DNA from: Candidatus Tidjanibacter faecipullorum
Lineage (GTDB): Bacteria > Bacteroidota > Bacteroidia > Bacteroidales > Rikenellaceae
Length of the DNA: 37,080 nt
NCBI GenBank assembly: GCA_019116245.1
Contig: DXCC01000007.1
Location: 1 to 37,080 of the forward strand
Direction: 5' to 3'
Shown: positions 12,480-22,051 of the stretch, piece by piece
Numbering within the stretch: the stretch's first letter is position 1
How the letters are laid out: each line of letters begins with the position of its first letter
Position numbers and translations under genes: made by a program
Notes under the pieces: generated by a model
The model's input: the letters and a program-made list of their open reading frames with translations, nothing else
Databases searched by the model: none
What the model was told of the DNA's origin: nothing

Positions 12480-13772
12480 ATGCTCTACGCACTACTGGAA
12501 TACCTCGAGGCCCACTTCAACCTGCCCGGCACGGGCCTCTTCCAATACCTCTCCTTCCGTTCGGCCTGCGCCATCATCTTCGCGCTGCTGATCGGAGCCA
12601 TCTTCGGCAAGAAGATCATCGAACGCCTGCGCCGCCACCAGATCGGCGAGGAGATCCGCAACCTCGGTCTGGAGGGCCAGATGGAGAAACGGGGTACCCC
12701 CACCATGGGCGGCATGATCATTCTCGGCGCCATGCTCATTCCCGTGGTGCTCTTCTGCGACCTGGGCAACGTCTATGTCCAGCTGATGATCGTCTCCTCG
12801 GTGTGGCTCGGCCTGCTGGGCTTTGCGGATGACTATATCAAGGTGTTCCGCAAGCACAAGGAGGGGCTCAAGGGCAAGTTCAAGATTGTCGGCCAGGTAG
12901 GTCTAGGCATCATTGTCGGCACGACCATGTGTTTCAGCAACGACATCGTCATCGTCGAGAAGGCCCATTCGCAGACGGCCGCCGCACAACAGTACGCCGC
13001 CCCCCTGCCGGGTACCGAAACGCCGACCACCCTGCTGCCGCAGGAAGGCTACGAAAAGGATGCGCCGGCCGACTCGGCCCTCGGCCAGCTGAAAACCACG
13101 AAGACCACCATTCCCTTCGTCAAGAACAACGAATTCGACTACCACTGGCTCGTGCCGTCGCACTCCGCATGGGGCGACGCGCTGACGTGGCTGATCTACG
13201 TGCTGGTGGCCATCTTCATCATCACGGCCGTCTCCAACGGAGCGAACCTCACCGACGGACTCGACGGACTGGCGACGGGCGTATCGGCCGTCATCATCGT
13301 CATTCTGGGCGTCTTTGCCTACCTCTCCGGCAACATCATCTACTCGGACTACCTGAACATCATGTACATTCCGGGGACGGGCGAGCTGATGGTCTTCGCC
13401 GCCGCGCTGGTGGGCGCCCTGATCGGCTTCCTGTGGTACAACTGCTATCCGGCCCAGGTCTTCATGGGCGATACGGGCAGCCTCGCCCTGGGCGGCATCA
13501 TCGCCGTCTTCGCCCTGCTGGTGCGCAAGGAGCTGCTGCTGCCGCTGCTGTGCGGCATCTTTCTGGTGGAGGCTGTCTCCACGATGATTCAGGTCTCCTA
13601 CTTCAAGTACACGAAAATGCGCTACGGCGAGGGACGCCGCTATTTCCTGATGGCGCCGCTGCACCACCACTACCAAAAGAAGGGCATCCCGGAGAACAAG
13701 ATCGTCGTCCGTTTCTGGATCGTCCAGATCCTGCTGGCGGCCCTGACCCTCGTCACACTCAAAATACGTTAG
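12480..13772 (+). CDS. mraY: Phospho-MurNAc-pentapeptide translocase
   Basis: This 430-residue polytopic membrane enzyme transfers phospho-MurNAc-pentapeptide from UDP to undecaprenyl phosphate, making lipid I. Family motifs are [17 protein letters not shown] with the Asp pair, [24 protein letters not shown] and the histidine block [14 protein letters not shown]. It is longer than the usual ~360 residues. The extra sequence lies after the third cytoplasmic motif, at about residues 155-235, as a Pro/Thr/Gln-rich non-hydrophobic stretch before the helix [16 protein letters not shown], so it should be a periplasmic loop. Longer MraY forms occur in Bacteroidetes. murD follows after only 4 bp. Confidence 0.96.
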
Positions 13773-13776
13773 CATC

Positions 13777-15153
13777 ATGAAAAAAGCTGTCATACTGGGT
13801 GGCGGCGAGAGCGGTTGCGGCTCCGCCGTGCTGGCCAAAGCCAAAGGCTGGAAGGTGTTCCTCACCGACCGCGGCACCATCGCCCCGAAATACCTCGAAC
13901 TGCTCGACCGCTACGGCATCGACTACGAGCAGGGAGCCCACACCGAATCGTCCATTCTCGACGCCGACCTGGCCATCAAGAGTCCGGGCATTCCGGACAC
14001 GGCGCCGATCGTCGTGAAGCTGCACGAGCAGGGCATTCCCGTCATCTCCGAGATCGAGTTTGCCGGCCGCTACACGAAGGGCCGGACGATCTGCATCACC
14101 GGTTCGAACGGCAAAACAACCACCACCACCCTGCTGGGCCGCATTCTGCAGGCCGCCGGCTACGACTCGGCCGTGGGAGGCAACATCGGCGAGAGCTTCG
14201 CCTATACGGTAGCCACCACCGACAAGGCGTGGTATGTCCTGGAGCTGAGCAGTTTCCAGCTTGACGGCATCGAGACCTTCCGGCCCGACATCGCCGTGCT
14301 GACCAACATCACGCCCGACCACCTGGACCGCTACGGCTACGTTTTCCAGAACTACATCGACAGCAAGTTCCGCATCATCCGCAACCAGCGGCCGGAGGAT
14401 TACTTCATCTACGACATCGACAATCCCGTGGTCAGCCGCGAAGTGGCCCTCCGCACCCCCGCCCTGCGCATGCTGCCCTTCGCCGCCCAGCACCCCTACG
14501 GCATCGGGACCGACACCTCGGCCTTTGACCGTCCGGGCGCCTTCCTGACCGATGGCGACCACTTCCGCGCCTCGGTCGGCGACCGCACCGTGACGATCGA
14601 CATCCGCCGGATGGGCATCAAGGGCATCCACAATACCTACAACGCCATGGCCGCCGCGCTGGCAGCCCTGGCCGCAGGCGTCGAGCCCGCCGTGATTGCC
14701 GACACGCTCTACACCTTCGAAGGCGTAGAACACCGCATGGAATTTGCCGGTTGCGTGAACGGCGTCACCTACATCAACGACTCGAAGGGCACGAACGTCG
14801 ATTCGACCTGGTATGCCCTGGACAGCATGCGCACCCCCACCGTGTGGATCGCCGGCGGTACGGACAAGGGCAACGACTACGAGACGCTCAAACCGCTGGC
14901 CCGCGAAAAGGTCAAGGCGCTGGTCTGCATGGGTGTGGACAACGCCAAGCTGATTGCCAGCTTCACGGGCGTGGTGCCGGCCGTCTATGACACCCATTCG
15001 CTGGCCGACACGATGCGCATCTGCGCCGAAATCGCCACCGAAGGCGACACGGTGCTGCTCTCGCCGGCCTGTGCCAGCTTTGACCTGTTCAAGAATTACG
15101 AAGATCGCGGACGGCAGTTCAAGGCGGCCGTCCAGGCGCTGCAAAAACGCTGA
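13777..15153 (+). CDS. murD: UDP-MurNAc-L-alanine:D-glutamate ligase
   Basis: This 458-residue cytoplasmic Mur ligase adds D-glutamate to UDP-MurNAc-L-Ala. The N-terminal Rossmann-type domain begins AVILGGGESGCGSAVLA, the P-loop GSNGKTTTTTLL starts at residue 109, and ELSSFQLDGIETFRPDIAV, NITPDHLDRYG, EHRMEF, NDSKGTN and the late block GGTDKGNDYETL are all typical of MurD. The length is normal. It lies 4 bp after mraY and 6 bp before ftsW, so translation is probably coupled. Confidence 0.96.
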   Translation: MKKAVILGGGESGCGSAVLAKAKGWKVFLTDRGTIAPKYLELLDRYGIDYEQGAHTESSILDADLAIKSPGIPDTAPIVVKLHEQGIPVISEIEFAGRYTKGRTICITGSNGKTTTTTLLGRILQAAGYDSAVGGNIGESFAYTVATTDKAWYVLELSSFQLDGIETFRPDIAVLTNITPDHLDRYGYVFQNYIDSKFRIIRNQRPEDYFIYDIDNPVVSREVALRTPALRMLPFAAQHPYGIGTDTSAFDRPGAFLTDGDHFRASVGDRTVTIDIRRMGIKGIHNTYNAMAAALAALAAGVEPAVIADTLYTFEGVEHRMEFAGCVNGVTYINDSKGTNVDSTWYALDSMRTPTVWIAGGTDKGNDYETLKPLAREKVKALVCMGVDNAKLIASFTGVVPAVYDTHSLADTMRICAEIATEGDTVLLSPACASFDLFKNYEDRGRQFKAAVQALQKR

Positions 15154-15159
15154 CACCCC

Positions 15160-16896
15160 ATGAGGTTCCGCAGACGCCATACCGACCGTACCCCCGACAC
15201 CGCCGGGCAGTCCGGTGCTTCCCCGCAGGCCGCACCGGCTGACGGAACCGCACCCGCCCTCGGCGCCGAGGCCCGACGGCTCACCGAAGAGGCGGCCCAT
15301 GCCATCGGCACGGGGGCCCGCAAGCTCTCGGACGCGGCCGTCCACACGATCGCACCGGAGGCCAAACGGCTCACCGAAGAGGCGGCCCACGCCATCGGCA
15401 CGGGGGCCCGCAAGCTCTCGGATACGGCCGTTCACACGATCGCACCGGAGGCCAAACGGCTCACCGGGGAGGCGGCCCACGCCATCGGCGAAGGGGCCAA
15501 ACGGCTCTCGTCGGCAGCCGCCGAAGCCATCGGTCCGGAAGCCAAACGACTCACCGAAGCGGGCATGAAGCTCGGCCGCCAGGCCCAGAAGAAGGGGCGC
15601 CGCTGGATCGACGCCATCTTCGGCGGCGACAAGGTGCTGTGGACGGTGATCGTCATCCTGCTGATCTTCTCCATGCTGCTGACCTTCTCGGCCACGGTCT
15701 ACAAGCCGGGCGGCACCCCGACCGCCAAGCTGTTCAACCAGCTGTTCTTCATCTTCCTGGGTATCGGCTCCCTGCTGGTCGTCCACCTGATCCGCTACCA
15801 GATCTACGGACGGCTAGCCAACTTCGTCTTCTTCACCGGTCTGGTACTCACCGTACTGGCCATGCTGATCGGCCCGGAAGGAGCCGGTGCACGACGCGAC
15901 CTGGTCATCCCCGTCATCAATCAGCCCATCCAGCCGTTCGAGATTCTGAAGATCGGCGTCCTGATGGTGCTGGCCAAACAGCTGGCCCGCCGCCAGAAGA
16001 CCATCGAACATACCCCCATCCTGCCCAGCCTCAACCCGCTCCGATGGATGCAGGATGCACAGGGCAACATGGACATTCTGCGCTATGAAACGATCCCGCT
16101 GCTGGGTCCCATCGCCATTACCTGCGTGCTGACCTTCCTCTCGGTGGGCAACTCGACGACCCTCATCATCGCCACCACCTGCATGGTGATGCTCTTCATC
16201 GGCCGCGTGCGCATGGCCGACCTGGGCAAGATCGTCGCGCTGGTGGCCGTGGCGGGCATCGTCTTCTTTGCCGTGGGACTGGGCCGAAGCGACACGGGCC
16301 GCAGCCGTATGGCCAGCTTCAAGCCCGACATGCTCACCAAACACGTCGCCTACACGCGCGACAGCATCGAGATCTACTCCTACCCGCCCGCCGTCACCCC
16401 CGACGGCAAAGTGGTCCCCGGCGAAACCGACCAGTCGATCAACGCCAAAATGTCGATCGCCTCGGGCGGCTTCTTCGGCAAGGGCCCGGGCATGAGCACC
16501 CACCGCTCAAACCTGGCCGAGGCGGAACGCGACTTCGCCTACGCCTTCATCATCGAGGAGTACGGCGCCGTGGGAGGCCTGATCATCCTGCTGCTCTACC
16601 TGTGGCTCTTCTTCCGGACCATCCAGATCTTCAAGAAGTGCGGCACGGCCTTCCCCAGCCTGCTGGTGCTGGGACTCGGCCTGATGATCGTCCTGCAGGC
16701 GATGATCCACATGCTCGTCTCGGTGTCGCTCTTCCCCATCACCGGCCAGCAGCTGCCGCTGATCAGCAAGGGCGGTTCGTCGCTGGTCTTCACCCTCATG
16801 GCGCTGGGCATGATTCTGGGTGTCAGCCGCCAGACGGCGGAACGCACCCTCGACACCCCCAAAAACGAATCGCTTTTTGAACACAACAACGACTGA
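15160..16896 (+). CDS. ftsW: Septal peptidoglycan glycosyltransferase FtsW with repeat-containing N-terminal extension
   Basis: This is a SEDS-family polymerase that builds septal glycan strands together with FtsI. The membrane core starts near residue 157 (KVLWTVIVILLIFSMLL) and carries family blocks RSRMASF, ASGGFFGKGPGMS, AERDFAYAFIIEEYGAVGG and TGQQLPLISKGGSS. The full frame gives 578 residues, against about 380-440 for most FtsW. The excess is a cytoplasmic N-terminal region: a basic start, a Pro/Ala-rich stretch, then six 15-residue units (38-127) and a partial seventh. Starting at the in-frame ATG at 15565 would give a normal 443-residue FtsW. However, ATG 15160 is only 6 bp after murD, the repeats keep frame and silent changes are frequent among them, so I favour the long form. 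Confidence 0.93.
   Translation: MRFRRRHTDRTPDTAGQSGASPQAAPADGTAPALGAEARRLTEEAAHAIGTGARKLSDAAVHTIAPEAKRLTEEAAHAIGTGARKLSDTAVHTIAPEAKRLTGEAAHAIGEGAKRLSSAAAEAIGPEAKRLTEAGMKLGRQAQKKGRRWIDAIFGGDKVLWTVIVILLIFSMLLTFSATVYKPGGTPTAKLFNQLFFIFLGIGSLLVVHLIRYQIYGRLANFVFFTGLVLTVLAMLIGPEGAGARRDLVIPVINQPIQPFEILKIGVLMVLAKQLARRQKTIEHTPILPSLNPLRWMQDAQGNMDILRYETIPLLGPIAITCVLTFLSVGNSTTLIIATTCMVMLFIGRVRMADLGKIVALVAVAGIVFFAVGLGRSDTGRSRMASFKPDMLTKHVAYTRDSIEIYSYPPAVTPDGKVVPGETDQSINAKMSIASGGFFGKGPGMSTHRSNLAEAERDFAYAFIIEEYGAVGGLIILLLYLWLFFRTIQIFKKCGTAFPSLLVLGLGLMIVLQAMIHMLVSVSLFPITGQQLPLISKGGSSLVFTLMALGMILGVSRQTAERTLDTPKNESLFEHNND
15271..15540 (+). repeat. Three tandem 90-bp repeats in the 5' part of ftsW
   Basis: Copies lie at 15271-15360, 15361-15450 and 15451-15540, with a decayed partial copy after 15541. 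Copies 1 and 2 differ at 6 of 90 bases by my count: three codons change silently and two conservatively (Arg/Lys, Ala/Thr). Copy 3 is more diverged. Each 30-codon unit encodes two related 15-residue segments, with a pattern close to A-[KR]-[KR]-L-[ST]-x-x-A-x-x-x-I-[GA]-x-[GE]. The frame is preserved throughout, which supports translation. Hydrophobic positions 1, 4, 8 and 12 suggest short amphipathic helices broken by Gly or Pro. Confidence 0.95.
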
Positions 16897-16970: not shown

Positions 16971-18089
16971 ATGAAAGACGGTAAACTGAAAATCATCCTC
17001 AGCGGAGGAGGAACCGGCGGCCACATTTATCCGGCCGTGGCAACAGCCGAGGCGCTCCGGCGTCTGCTCGGCGACGAAGGCGTCGAACTGCTCTTCGTGG
17101 GCGCACAGGGCAAAATGGAGATGGAAAAGCTGCCCGCACTGGGCTACCGGGTCGTCGGTCTGCCGGTGGCCGGTCTGCAGCGCAAGTTCGACCTGCACAA
17201 CTTCGCTCTCCCCTTCAAGGTGCTCCGCAGCCTGCGTGAGGCCCGGCGCACCATCCGTTCGTTCGGAGCCGACGTGGTGGCCGGCTTCGGCGGCTACGCC
17301 AGCGCTCCGGTGCTGTGGTCGGCCCAACGGATGGGCATTCCGACCCTCATCCAGGAACAGAACTCCTACGCCGGCGTGACGAACAAGATCCTCGCCCGCC
17401 GCGCCCGCCGCATCTGTGTGGCCTACGACGGCATGGAACGCTTCTTCCCGGCCGACCGGATCGTCTTCACGGGCAATCCGCTGCGCGGCAACTTCCTGCA
17501 GGCCGCACCGCGCGAGGAGGCCGCCGCCCACTTCGGGCTGCGCCCCGACGTGCCGACCCTGCTGATCGTCGGCGGCAGCCTCGGCACCCGCACCCTCAAC
17601 GAAGCCATGAAACGGTACGCCGACTCGCTCGGCGCCAATCCCGACGTGCAGGTCATCTGGCAGACGGGCAAATACTACGAAAAGGAGATGGAGGCCTTCA
17701 TGGCTTCGCGCCACTGTCCAAACATCTGGCGCGGCGCCTTCATCGACCGCATGGATTACGCCTACGCAGCGGCCGACGTGGTCGTATCGCGTTCGGGCGC
17801 CTGCACGGTATCGGAACTGGCGCTGGCCGGCAAGGCAGTCATCTTCGTTCCCTCGCCCAATGTGGCCGAAGACCATCAGACCAAGAATGCGCGTGCGTTG
17901 GCCGACCGCGATGCGGCCCTGCTGATCCCCGATGCCGAAGCTGTCGAACGGGCCCTTCCCGCCGCACTGGAACTGCTCGGCGACCGCGACCGCATCGCCC
18001 GCCTGGAGAGCAACATCCGCCACATGGCTACGCCCGATGCGGCCCGGGACGTAGCCACCGAAATCCTCCGACTCGTCGGCCGCGCCTAA
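16971..18089 (+). CDS. murG: Lipid II synthase (UDP-GlcNAc transferase MurG)
   Basis: This 372-residue peripheral membrane GT-B glycosyltransferase adds GlcNAc to lipid I, giving lipid II on the cytoplasmic face. The N-terminal GGGTGGHIYPAVATAEAL, the acceptor-domain block GFGGYASAPVL with IQEQNSYAGVTNK, the hinge GGSLGTRTLNEA and the UDP-GlcNAc-binding SRSGACTVSELALAGKA and PSPNVAEDHQTKNA are present in order. Length is standard. It follows ftsW after 74 bp, a GC-rich gap in which I see no clear signal, and precedes murC by 13 bp. Confidence 0.97.
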   Translation: MKDGKLKIILSGGGTGGHIYPAVATAEALRRLLGDEGVELLFVGAQGKMEMEKLPALGYRVVGLPVAGLQRKFDLHNFALPFKVLRSLREARRTIRSFGADVVAGFGGYASAPVLWSAQRMGIPTLIQEQNSYAGVTNKILARRARRICVAYDGMERFFPADRIVFTGNPLRGNFLQAAPREEAAAHFGLRPDVPTLLIVGGSLGTRTLNEAMKRYADSLGANPDVQVIWQTGKYYEKEMEAFMASRHCPNIWRGAFIDRMDYAYAAADVVVSRSGACTVSELALAGKAVIFVPSPNVAEDHQTKNARALADRDAALLIPDAEAVERALPAALELLGDRDRIARLESNIRHMATPDAARDVATEILRLVGRA

Positions 18090-20521: not shown

Positions 20522-22051
20522 GTGGAAAACAATCACTACATAGCAGCCATAGACCTCGGCTCGGGCAAGGTGACTGCCGCCGCCGGCAGCAAGGATCCCG
20601 ACGGCAGGCTCAATGTCATCGACGTGGTGACGCGTCCGATGCAGGGCATGTCCTGCGGCGAGGTCATCAACATCGAACAAGTTACGGCCGCCGTGCGCGG
20701 CGCCGTCACCCAGCTGGAGGAAGAGCTGGGCATCAAGATCACGGAAGCCTACGCAGGCATTTCCGGTCACGACATCAAATGTGCGGACAGCTCCTACTTC
20801 GTGTATGTGAGCGGTGAGGATCACGAGATCTGCGAGGAGGACGTACAGCGCCTGCACGAAAGCATGACCAGCCTGCAGCCGCCCGAGGGCATCTGCATCC
20901 TCGACCGCATCCCGCAGAAATACGTCATCGACTCGCGCGAGGAGACCAAGCAGCCCGTCGGCCGTTTCGGCCAGCAGCTCGAGGCCACCTTCAACTTCGT
21001 GCTGGGCAACCGGAGCAGTCTGGAGCGTCTGCAAAAGGCCTTCACCCGGCTGGGCATCACCCCCCGCCGGCTCTTCACCAACGCCCAGGCCAGTGCGGCC
21101 GCCGTACTGACGGAGGACGAAAAGGAACTCGGCGCCGCCGTGGTGGACATCGGCACGGGATGTACCGACATTTGCATCTGGCAGGACAACATCATGCGCT
21201 ACGTGGCCATGCTGCCCATCGGTTCGGATGCGATCAACCGCGACATCCGCTCGATCGCCATTCCCGAACGGTTCATCGAGAAACTGAAGACGACGCACGG
21301 CTATGCCGTCGCCAACCATATTCCCGAGGAGAAAAAGACCCAGAGCATCAAGATCAAGGGTCGCACGCCGCGCGAAAACAAGGAGATCTCGTTCTACAAC
21401 CTCGCCCAGATCATCGAGGCGCGGCTGCTGGACATCGTGGAGAATGTTCTGGAAGAGATCCGCGAGTCGGGATATGCCGACAAGCTGGGATCGGGCATCG
21501 TCCTGACCGGCGGCGGCTCCTTGCTGCGCGACATCGACGTGCTCTTCCGCGAACGTACCAAATACGACATCCGCATCGGCGGATGCTGCCCCGAACTGCT
21601 GAACGAGGCGTCCGCTGCCCTGGCCGGCGATCCGTCGCTCTCCTCGGCACTCGGCCTGCTGCTGCTCGGCAGCGAAGAGTGCGGTCTGGAACCGACCGAC
21701 ACGCCGCTCACCAAACGGGAAGCGGCCCCGCAGCCGGAACCGGAACCCGAGCCGACCCCGAAACCGCAACAGCCCCGCCAGCCCGCTGCGCCGAAGCCGC
21801 GTCCGGCCGCTCCGCAACCGGCCCCCAAACCCCAACCGGCGCCGAAACCCCAGCCGGCGCCGAAACCCCAGCCGGAACCGGAGCCCGATCCTGACCATGA
21901 AGAGGACACGGATATCAACGACACGCCCTCCCGGCCGGCCGAGCAACCGCATCCGCATGCCCGGGACAAGAAGAAAAAAGGCGGCCTGTTCGGCGGTCTG
22001 AAAAAGATCTTCACCGACGTCTTCGACGTGGTCGACGACGACGAAATCTAA
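20522..22051 (+). CDS. ftsA: Cell division protein FtsA with proline-rich linker
   Basis: This 509-residue actin-like ATPase tethers FtsZ to the membrane. The N-terminal phosphate loop IAAIDLGSGKV, the AYAGISGHDIKC region, VVDIGTGCTDICIW (phosphate 2) and IVLTGGGSLLRDID (adenosine) are present. The start is GTG at 20522. The core ends near residue 398. An unusual linker of about 85 residues follows, rich in Pro, Gln, Lys and Glu with PAPKPQ repeats, and the protein ends in a basic patch and an amphipathic helix (GGLFGGLKKIFTDVF, about 487-501) that should be the membrane-targeting sequence. Typical FtsA is 400-450 residues with a shorter linker. It lies 13 bp before ftsZ. Confidence 0.95.
   Translation: MENNHYIAAIDLGSGKVTAAAGSKDPDGRLNVIDVVTRPMQGMSCGEVINIEQVTAAVRGAVTQLEEELGIKITEAYAGISGHDIKCADSSYFVYVSGEDHEICEEDVQRLHESMTSLQPPEGICILDRIPQKYVIDSREETKQPVGRFGQQLEATFNFVLGNRSSLERLQKAFTRLGITPRRLFTNAQASAAAVLTEDEKELGAAVVDIGTGCTDICIWQDNIMRYVAMLPIGSDAINRDIRSIAIPERFIEKLKTTHGYAVANHIPEEKKTQSIKIKGRTPRENKEISFYNLAQIIEARLLDIVENVLEEIRESGYADKLGSGIVLTGGGSLLRDIDVLFRERTKYDIRIGGCCPELLNEASAALAGDPSLSSALGLLLLGSEECGLEPTDTPLTKREAAPQPEPEPEPTPKPQQPRQPAAPKPRPAAPQPAPKPQPAPKPQPAPKPQPEPEPDPDHEEDTDINDTPSRPAEQPHPHARDKKKKGGLFGGLKKIFTDVFDVVDDDEI
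21818..21871 (+). repeat. Three tandem 18-bp units in the ftsA linker
   Basis: Units at 21818-21835 (degenerate), 21836-21853 and 21854-21871 share the form CCGGCGCCGAAACCCCAG; the last two are identical. They encode the Pro-Ala-Pro-Lys-Pro-Gln repeats of the FtsA linker. Such a tract is prone to length change by slippage or recombination. Confidence 0.9.

Follow-up and report, generated by a model that had tools for sequence, protein, structure and literature searches.

A tandem array of 15-residue units in the cytoplasmic tail of an FtsW from Candidatus Tidjanibacter faecipullorum

FtsW is described mostly by its membrane core and its periplasmic contacts. A predicted FtsW of Candidatus Tidjanibacter faecipullorum (Rikenellaceae) raises a question about the other side of the membrane, namely what a long cytoplasmic N-terminal tail built of tandem 15-residue units is, where it came from and what it might do. 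The gene lies in a 37,080-nucleotide stretch of contig DXCC01000007.1, which is referred to here as the window, and it is an open reading frame of 578 amino acids on the forward strand (15160-16896). About 155 residues precede the GGDK motif at the first transmembrane segment (TM1), in agreement with the roughly 150 that an earlier reading of the DNA, made without database searches and called the sequence-only reading below, had counted ahead of the membrane.

Judged from its sequence, the gene encodes an FtsW-type septal polymerase, the tail of which grew longer as a membrane-proximal helix segment was duplicated in tandem. The SEDS polymerase core (15628-16893, forward strand) is recognized by Pfam, by its AlphaFold2 model and by Foldseek. 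The FTSW_RODA_SPOVE model (PF01098) covers residues 159-559 (E 1.6e-52; 179.1 bits, cut-off 26.4), and the best NCBIfam model is TIGR02614 ftsW with 196.5 bits (rodA scores 156.3), a score that is below the TIGR02614 cut-off of 337.5. Residue D458 is invariant in 36 of 36 aligned rows and is presumably the catalytic Asp of the SEDS family. The AlphaFold2 core has the SEDS fold, with ten helices of at least 17 residues counted in the model, and Foldseek matches the model to 8p1u_A (E 6.8e-14, TMt 0.82) and also to 8bh1_A, both of which are chains of FtsWIQBL divisome structures. The gene has its place in the dcw cluster as well, where NCBIfam gives the order mraY-murD-ftsW-murG-murC; murD (13777-15153, forward strand; TIGR01087, E 3.8e-115) adjoins it on the upstream side and murG (16971-18089, forward strand; TIGR01133, E 7.3e-83) on the downstream side. 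In its core, its position between murD and murG and its resemblance to the two FtsWIQBL chains, the protein is like the other Rikenellaceae FtsW orthologues, and the difference is in the tail, which has about 155 residues and a seven-unit array compared with a median of 20 residues in the loci surveyed.

The array itself occupies residues 37-141 and consists of seven 15-residue units in the order ABABABA', in which A is EAKRLTEEAAHAIGT, B is GARKLSDAAVHTIAP and the last is a variant A. The unit period is 15 residues, and with the alternation of A and B the true period is 30 residues. All of the following features are on the forward strand. A head of 36 residues with a net charge of +2 (15160-15267), of which residues 1-32 are without predicted structure (pLDDT <50), is followed by unit 1 (15268-15312; type A, EARRLTEEAAHAIGT), unit 2 (15313-15357; type B), unit 3 (15358-15402; type A), unit 4 (15403-15447; type B), unit 5 (15448-15492; type A), unit 6 (15493-15537; type B) and the membrane-proximal unit 7 (15538-15582; EAKRLTEAGMKLGRQ). 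A basic juxtamembrane helix then leads into TM1 (15583-15630; AQKKGRRWIDAIFGGD). The sequence-only reading had described six units and a partial seventh at residues 38-127. Its 15-residue unit stands, but there are seven full-length units, and what it took for a partial unit is the full-length membrane-proximal one, which is conserved in the clade described below. Its hydrophobic positions 1, 4, 8 and 12 and basic positions 2-3 are right in its own register. The Gly or Pro that it placed at the end of each unit is indeed there, although at positions 13-15 and not strictly at the end.

At the DNA level, TRF detects the array within 15255-15559 as tandem repeats with periods of 45 bp and 90 bp, and the best row (15268-15489) has a period of 90, 93% matches and a score of 388. 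Units 1 and 3 are identical at 42 of 45 nucleotides, as are units 2 and 4, and therefore the duplication or conversion that made them is recent; turnover in 90-bp steps has continued until recently in the window's lineage. The copy number of the array could be affected by the assembly of the repeats, but the array itself is supported by the separate assembly of a relative, G007. A search for copies elsewhere in the window's genome gave nothing beyond a match of 26% identity (E 0.08).

The relative G007, whose FtsW is 83% identical overall and 88.4% identical in the core, has seven units at matching places and one degenerate unit ahead of them, and so the two arrays can be compared codon by codon. 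Over 105 array codons the differences between the two species number 19, 16 and 46 at the first, second and third codon positions. The synonymous difference is 0.506 and the nonsynonymous difference 0.165 (Fisher p 4.6e-9, counts rounded), which gives a dN/dS of about 0.22, compared with 0.17 in the core; this value pairs the units by position (two shifted pairings gave 0.36 and 0.38) and is a guide only, since units have been exchanged, unit 1 of the window being closer to unit 5 of G007 (41/45) than to unit 1 of G007 (33/45). When the 14 units of the two species are numbered from residue 37, position 2 is Ala in all 14, positions 3 and 4 are each Lys or Arg in all 14 with varied codons, position 5 is Leu in 13 and Phe in the remaining one, and position 13 is Ile in 11. 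The window and G007 share an identity of 0.78 in the FtsW frame of the array versus 0.50-0.69 in the other reading frames, and four of the five other frames carry a stop in at least one of the two species. Taken together, these comparisons show that the array is coding and that its amino acids are constrained, and the coding cytoplasmic extension of amphipathic 15-mers proposed earlier is conserved as protein in this one relative.

The ATG at 15160 lies 6 nt past the murD stop and, as that stop is itself in the ftsW frame, it is the earliest ATG available. The functional protein could instead start at an internal in-frame ATG (M136; 15565-15567, forward strand), in which case the array would be untranslated or would belong to a minor isoform, and the sequence-only reading had named such a start as the result that would overturn it. 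This ATG stands right before the juxtamembrane helix and is Met in five of the six clade species. However, the protein-level constraint sits upstream of it, locus L004 is without an ATG at the aligned position, and the long open reading frame begins 6 nt past murD in both the window and G007. On the sequence evidence, this conservation upstream makes a start at 15565 very improbable.

The six species with a readable N-terminus, the window and G007 among them, form a clade with a support of 100/99; a seventh relative, G002, is cut at a contig end, shows no N-terminus and is outside the six-species comparison. In the alignment of the six, each tail appears to close with a pair of units, after which a basic helix that contains tryptophan enters TM1. 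Unit 7 and the juxtamembrane run R-W-I-D-A-(I/V)-F-G-G-D-K are common to all of them, and E127, A128, L131, E133, G135 and G139 in unit 7, together with R148-A152 and F154-D157 in the juxtamembrane segment, are invariant (6/6). In the four species other than the window and G007, between 70 and 140 residues precede the GGDK motif and there is no array; the stretch ahead of their last unit, which aligns with unit 6 of the window, resembles a B unit by eye. Since this last pair of units is common to the six species, the pair is ancestral and the array is that pair multiplied.

The branching among the six species is left unresolved by the core tree. Holding the window and G007 together gives a p-AU of 0.173 and a log-likelihood that is 1.84 lower, and so this grouping is neither required nor rejected. 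These results fit either of two histories: the array may have been amplified in a common ancestor of the window and G007, or an older array may have been trimmed in the other four species. The comparison of repeat number among orthologues that had been suggested earlier thus finds the same array in G007 and none in four other clade species. With four of the five other clade members that have a readable N-terminus lacking the array, a general FtsW domain is not supported, and the putative new domain is better understood as a conserved membrane-proximal helix that was multiplied in this lineage.

The pattern in the wider family was examined in 135 FtsW loci, 129 from the family and six from other Bacteroidales families (L025-L030), after 19 of 154 loci (duplicates and non-FtsW matches) had been left out; the 129 family loci come from part of the 254 family genomes with an FtsW match. 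The tail was taken to start at the first in-frame ATG after the end of murD. Twelve of the 135 loci gave no length: L010 and L024 are at a contig end, L052 had no match and nine have no ATG under this rule (L012, L013, L014, L016, L028, L065, L083, L085 and L086), four of which (L012, L013, L014 and L016) have, under another reading, tails of 32-40 residues when counted up to the position that aligns with residue 141. In the 123 usable loci the length before the GD motif has a median of 20 and a maximum of 205 residues; 24 tails have at least 60 residues and 11 have at least 100. A long FtsW tail is therefore not new in the family. Judged by eye, the remaining long tails seem to be disordered, with a high content of Ala, Gly, Asp and Arg.

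Internal repeats are less common. Only four of the 31 tails that are at least 40 residues long have them at p <=0.01, namely those of the window, G007, L054 and L151. The window tail has the strongest (97% identity at a lag of 30 residues, 0 of 300 shuffles as strong) and, with G007 (77% at the same lag), one of the two clearest; the repeat of L151 is weak. The L054 tail has a 9-residue tandem repeat of its own (KPGAA-type, 75%, 0/300 shuffles as strong), which is unrelated to the array. Repeats as a family-wide feature of FtsW were rejected, as they occur in four of 31 tails and two of these four are unrelated to the array. By sequence comparison, then, the array is present in two species only among the loci surveyed. 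The observation is real, and the family is one in which this tail is free to change.

AlphaFold2 predicts helices at residues 33-88 (pLDDT about 60) and 95-153 (81-89 from residue 101). These pass through most of the Gly/Pro boundaries with one break, at residues 89-94, and so the model does not support many short helices. A model of G007 residues 1-246 had low confidence (mean pLDDT 52.6) and was not used. The single units of the window have a modest hydrophobic moment of 0.38-0.42, which exceeds that of residue shuffles only slightly (p 0.026-0.12 for the seven units). The residue order within the unit favours an amphipathic period: when the columns were permuted, 3.2% of the arrays had as much power at 90-110 degrees. 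The spectrum of the array peaks at 95 degrees per residue, and the moment of the whole array is 0.066 at 100 degrees per residue and 0.344 at 96. On a continuous helix the hydrophobic stripe would turn by 42-73 degrees per unit, which makes a single straight membrane helix unlikely, and one long straight amphipathic membrane helix was rejected on phase. This leaves two choices, a right-handed supercoil or a series of short helices that break at Gly-Thr or Ala-Pro.

The net charge of units 1-6 in the window alternates between -1 and +1, residues 37-126 sum to 0, and the alternation over units 2-6 is present in both the window and G007. The two differ in unit 1 (-1 in the window versus +1 in G007) and in unit 7 (+2 versus 0). 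A calculated lipid-binding score is low for the A units (0.02-0.06) and borderline for the B units (about 0.7). As for the string of membrane-touching helices proposed by the sequence-only reading, the amphipathic 15-mers hold, but the modest moments, the alternating charge and a stripe that runs off line weaken a simple string lying on the membrane. The juxtamembrane segment, residues 136-153, has a moment of 0.55 and a charge of +5 in the window; across the six clade species it is basic and amphipathic throughout, with moments of 0.49-0.60 and charges of +3 to +7. It is the strong candidate for membrane contact, and it is the part that the six species have in common.

What would such an array do? 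The reading that we tentatively favour, with less than even confidence, is that weak amphipathic helices form a chain, which would lengthen the juxtamembrane anchor, dock on a putative partner, or do both. The array would be flexible, its short, weak, Ala-rich amphipathic helices being interrupted at Gly-Thr or Ala-Pro, and this chain would let the strong juxtamembrane anchor reach further and bind with more avidity at the inner leaflet and/or present repeated docking faces to a putative cytoplasmic partner in the divisome. As a result, FtsW would be held near the Z-ring. The constraint on the array, its conserved unit positions, the shared units 6-7 and juxtamembrane helix, the amphipathic period and the helicity in AlphaFold2 all speak for such a chain, whereas four of the five other clade species do without the array, the A units have a -1 charge and a low lipid score, the moments are weak and the AlphaFold2 helices are mostly unbroken. 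A selected spacer and pure docking rank close behind the weak-helix chain. In the case of the spacer, which we regard as somewhat unlikely, the array would merely lengthen a permissive cytoplasmic tail, and solubility and helix propensity would be kept with no specific contact. The highly variable length of the tails (11/123 with at least 100 residues), their mostly unrelated sequences, which are low-complexity by eye, the four clade species without the array and the unrelated repeat that another lineage, L054, has in its own tail would all suit a spacer; however, a position-specific constraint over 14 units (the Ala, the two basic positions and the Leu described above) and a dN/dS of about 0.22 go beyond what a spacer should need.

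Multivalent docking, in which alternating acidic and basic helices would bind FtsZ, FtsA or FtsK, or pair with each other, and the membrane would not be directly involved, we consider unlikely. The charge alternation of units 2-6 in both species is in keeping with it, and a precedent is the Mycobacterium tuberculosis FtsQ helix that binds FtsZ (PMC10036325). Against this, two units suffice in four clade species, and the tail matches no known helical repeat by fold or sequence. The other choice on phase is a right-handed coiled coil with 15 residues in four turns, or 3.75 per turn, by which two or more FtsW tails would wind together and oligomerise the enzyme. Fifteen-residue right-handed coils occur in the stalks of trimeric adhesins, the 95-degree peak and the larger moment at 96 than at 100 degrees give the hydrophobic spacing that such a coil needs, and the AlphaFold2 monomer has two long helices with the break at 89-94. 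The FtsW array is like the adhesin coils in its 15/4 spacing but differs from them in its boundary helix breakers and its many stripe Ala: Gly-Thr-Gly and Ala-Pro at the unit boundaries tend to break helices, and half of the stripe positions are Ala. In addition, there is one FtsW per complex in the solved FtsWIQBL structures. A coiled coil is, in our view, improbable. Returning to the weak-helix chain, a bolder version of it, which is speculative and quite unlikely, would make the array a tunable, unit-counted tether: a multivalent arm derived from the amplified juxtamembrane helix would set the hold of the septal polymerase at the membrane or the Z-ring, and the repeat number would be an evolutionary dial.

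Two known systems are useful for comparison. The cytoplasmic helix of M. tuberculosis FtsQ, which is rich in Arg and Ala, binds acidic membranes and FtsZ, both of which were measured (PMC10036325). Like the window FtsW, FtsQ is a membrane protein of the divisome whose long cytoplasmic N-terminal region contains an Ala-rich basic helix; it differs in being another protein and in having a single 29-residue helix with 11 Arg, and the accessible part of that paper describes no tandem repeat. The second comparison is with perilipin 4 and the alpha-synuclein 11-mers, where weak amphipathic units with a charged polar face also stand in tandem. The Plin4 repeats are individually weak and act by their length (PMC5889406). 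The units are 11 residues long (33-mers in Plin4) and nearly in phase on a helix. In the FtsW array the units have 15 residues and are bounded by Gly or Pro, and no homology is implied; as an array of the perilipin/synuclein 11-mer type it was rejected by its period (15, with a super-period of 30). In the loci surveyed the tail has a median length of 20 residues and a maximum of 205, and in two species it carries a constrained array, which suggests that the cytoplasmic side of FtsW is an evolving contact surface. Through its unit number, charge and helix breaks, the array offers a handle on the coupling of FtsW to the inner divisome in the Bacteroidota.

Searches for related sequences gave few leads. 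A known Pfam domain for the tail was rejected, as there were sub-threshold matches only (DUF3847 over a 21-residue stretch, with an E of 8e-4 and 19.8 bits where the cut-off is 40), and the G007 tail likewise gave weak Pfam matches only. The best match of the tail among PDB sequences had an E of 0.15, and among known helical repeats nothing matched it in fold or sequence. The tail was also searched in a sample of 393 genomes of the order, and G007 is not among the matches listed. There were 10 matches at E <=0.01, one of them to the window itself and another to the membrane-proximal unit of G001. Six others, with 29-30% identity in frames of 515-544 aa, were taken as composition matches. The remaining two, which are stronger than these six, are short frames from other Bacteroidales families, L068 (G477; 161 aa, E 2.2e-6) and L069 (G347; 148 aa, E 1.2e-5), which perhaps resemble the array only in composition and periodicity. 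In the open-licence PMC literature, a repeat-built N-terminal tail of FtsW was not found in the titles or the starts of the abstracts among the matches listed, and the accessible parts of PMC7614612, PMC8998562 and PMC10449877 hold nothing on long FtsW tails.

Several other features of these loci stand out. A motif near YDER-x-AAE-x-ARDA, which starts at residues 7-9, is present in 15 of the 31 tails that have at least 40 residues (15/123 usable loci), namely L049, L053, L054, L057, L058, L134, L135, L136, L139, L141, L142, L144, L145, L146 and L148, and the stretch after it varies in length and seems to be disordered. One possibility is that the motif is a short docking site carried at the tip of a leash, in which case it may point to an FtsW partner more readily than the array does. 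In the window, mraY (12480-13772) is matched by the NCBIfam mraY model in two stretches, the best from residue 238 on, and residues 150-235 or so look like an insertion. A putative ftsA (20522-22051), named by its sequence and place, contains an 18-bp tandem repeat of 3.4 copies (21815-21875) that encodes a Pro-rich QPAPKP linker, and this is followed by a basic C-terminal stretch that may be a membrane-targeting helix.
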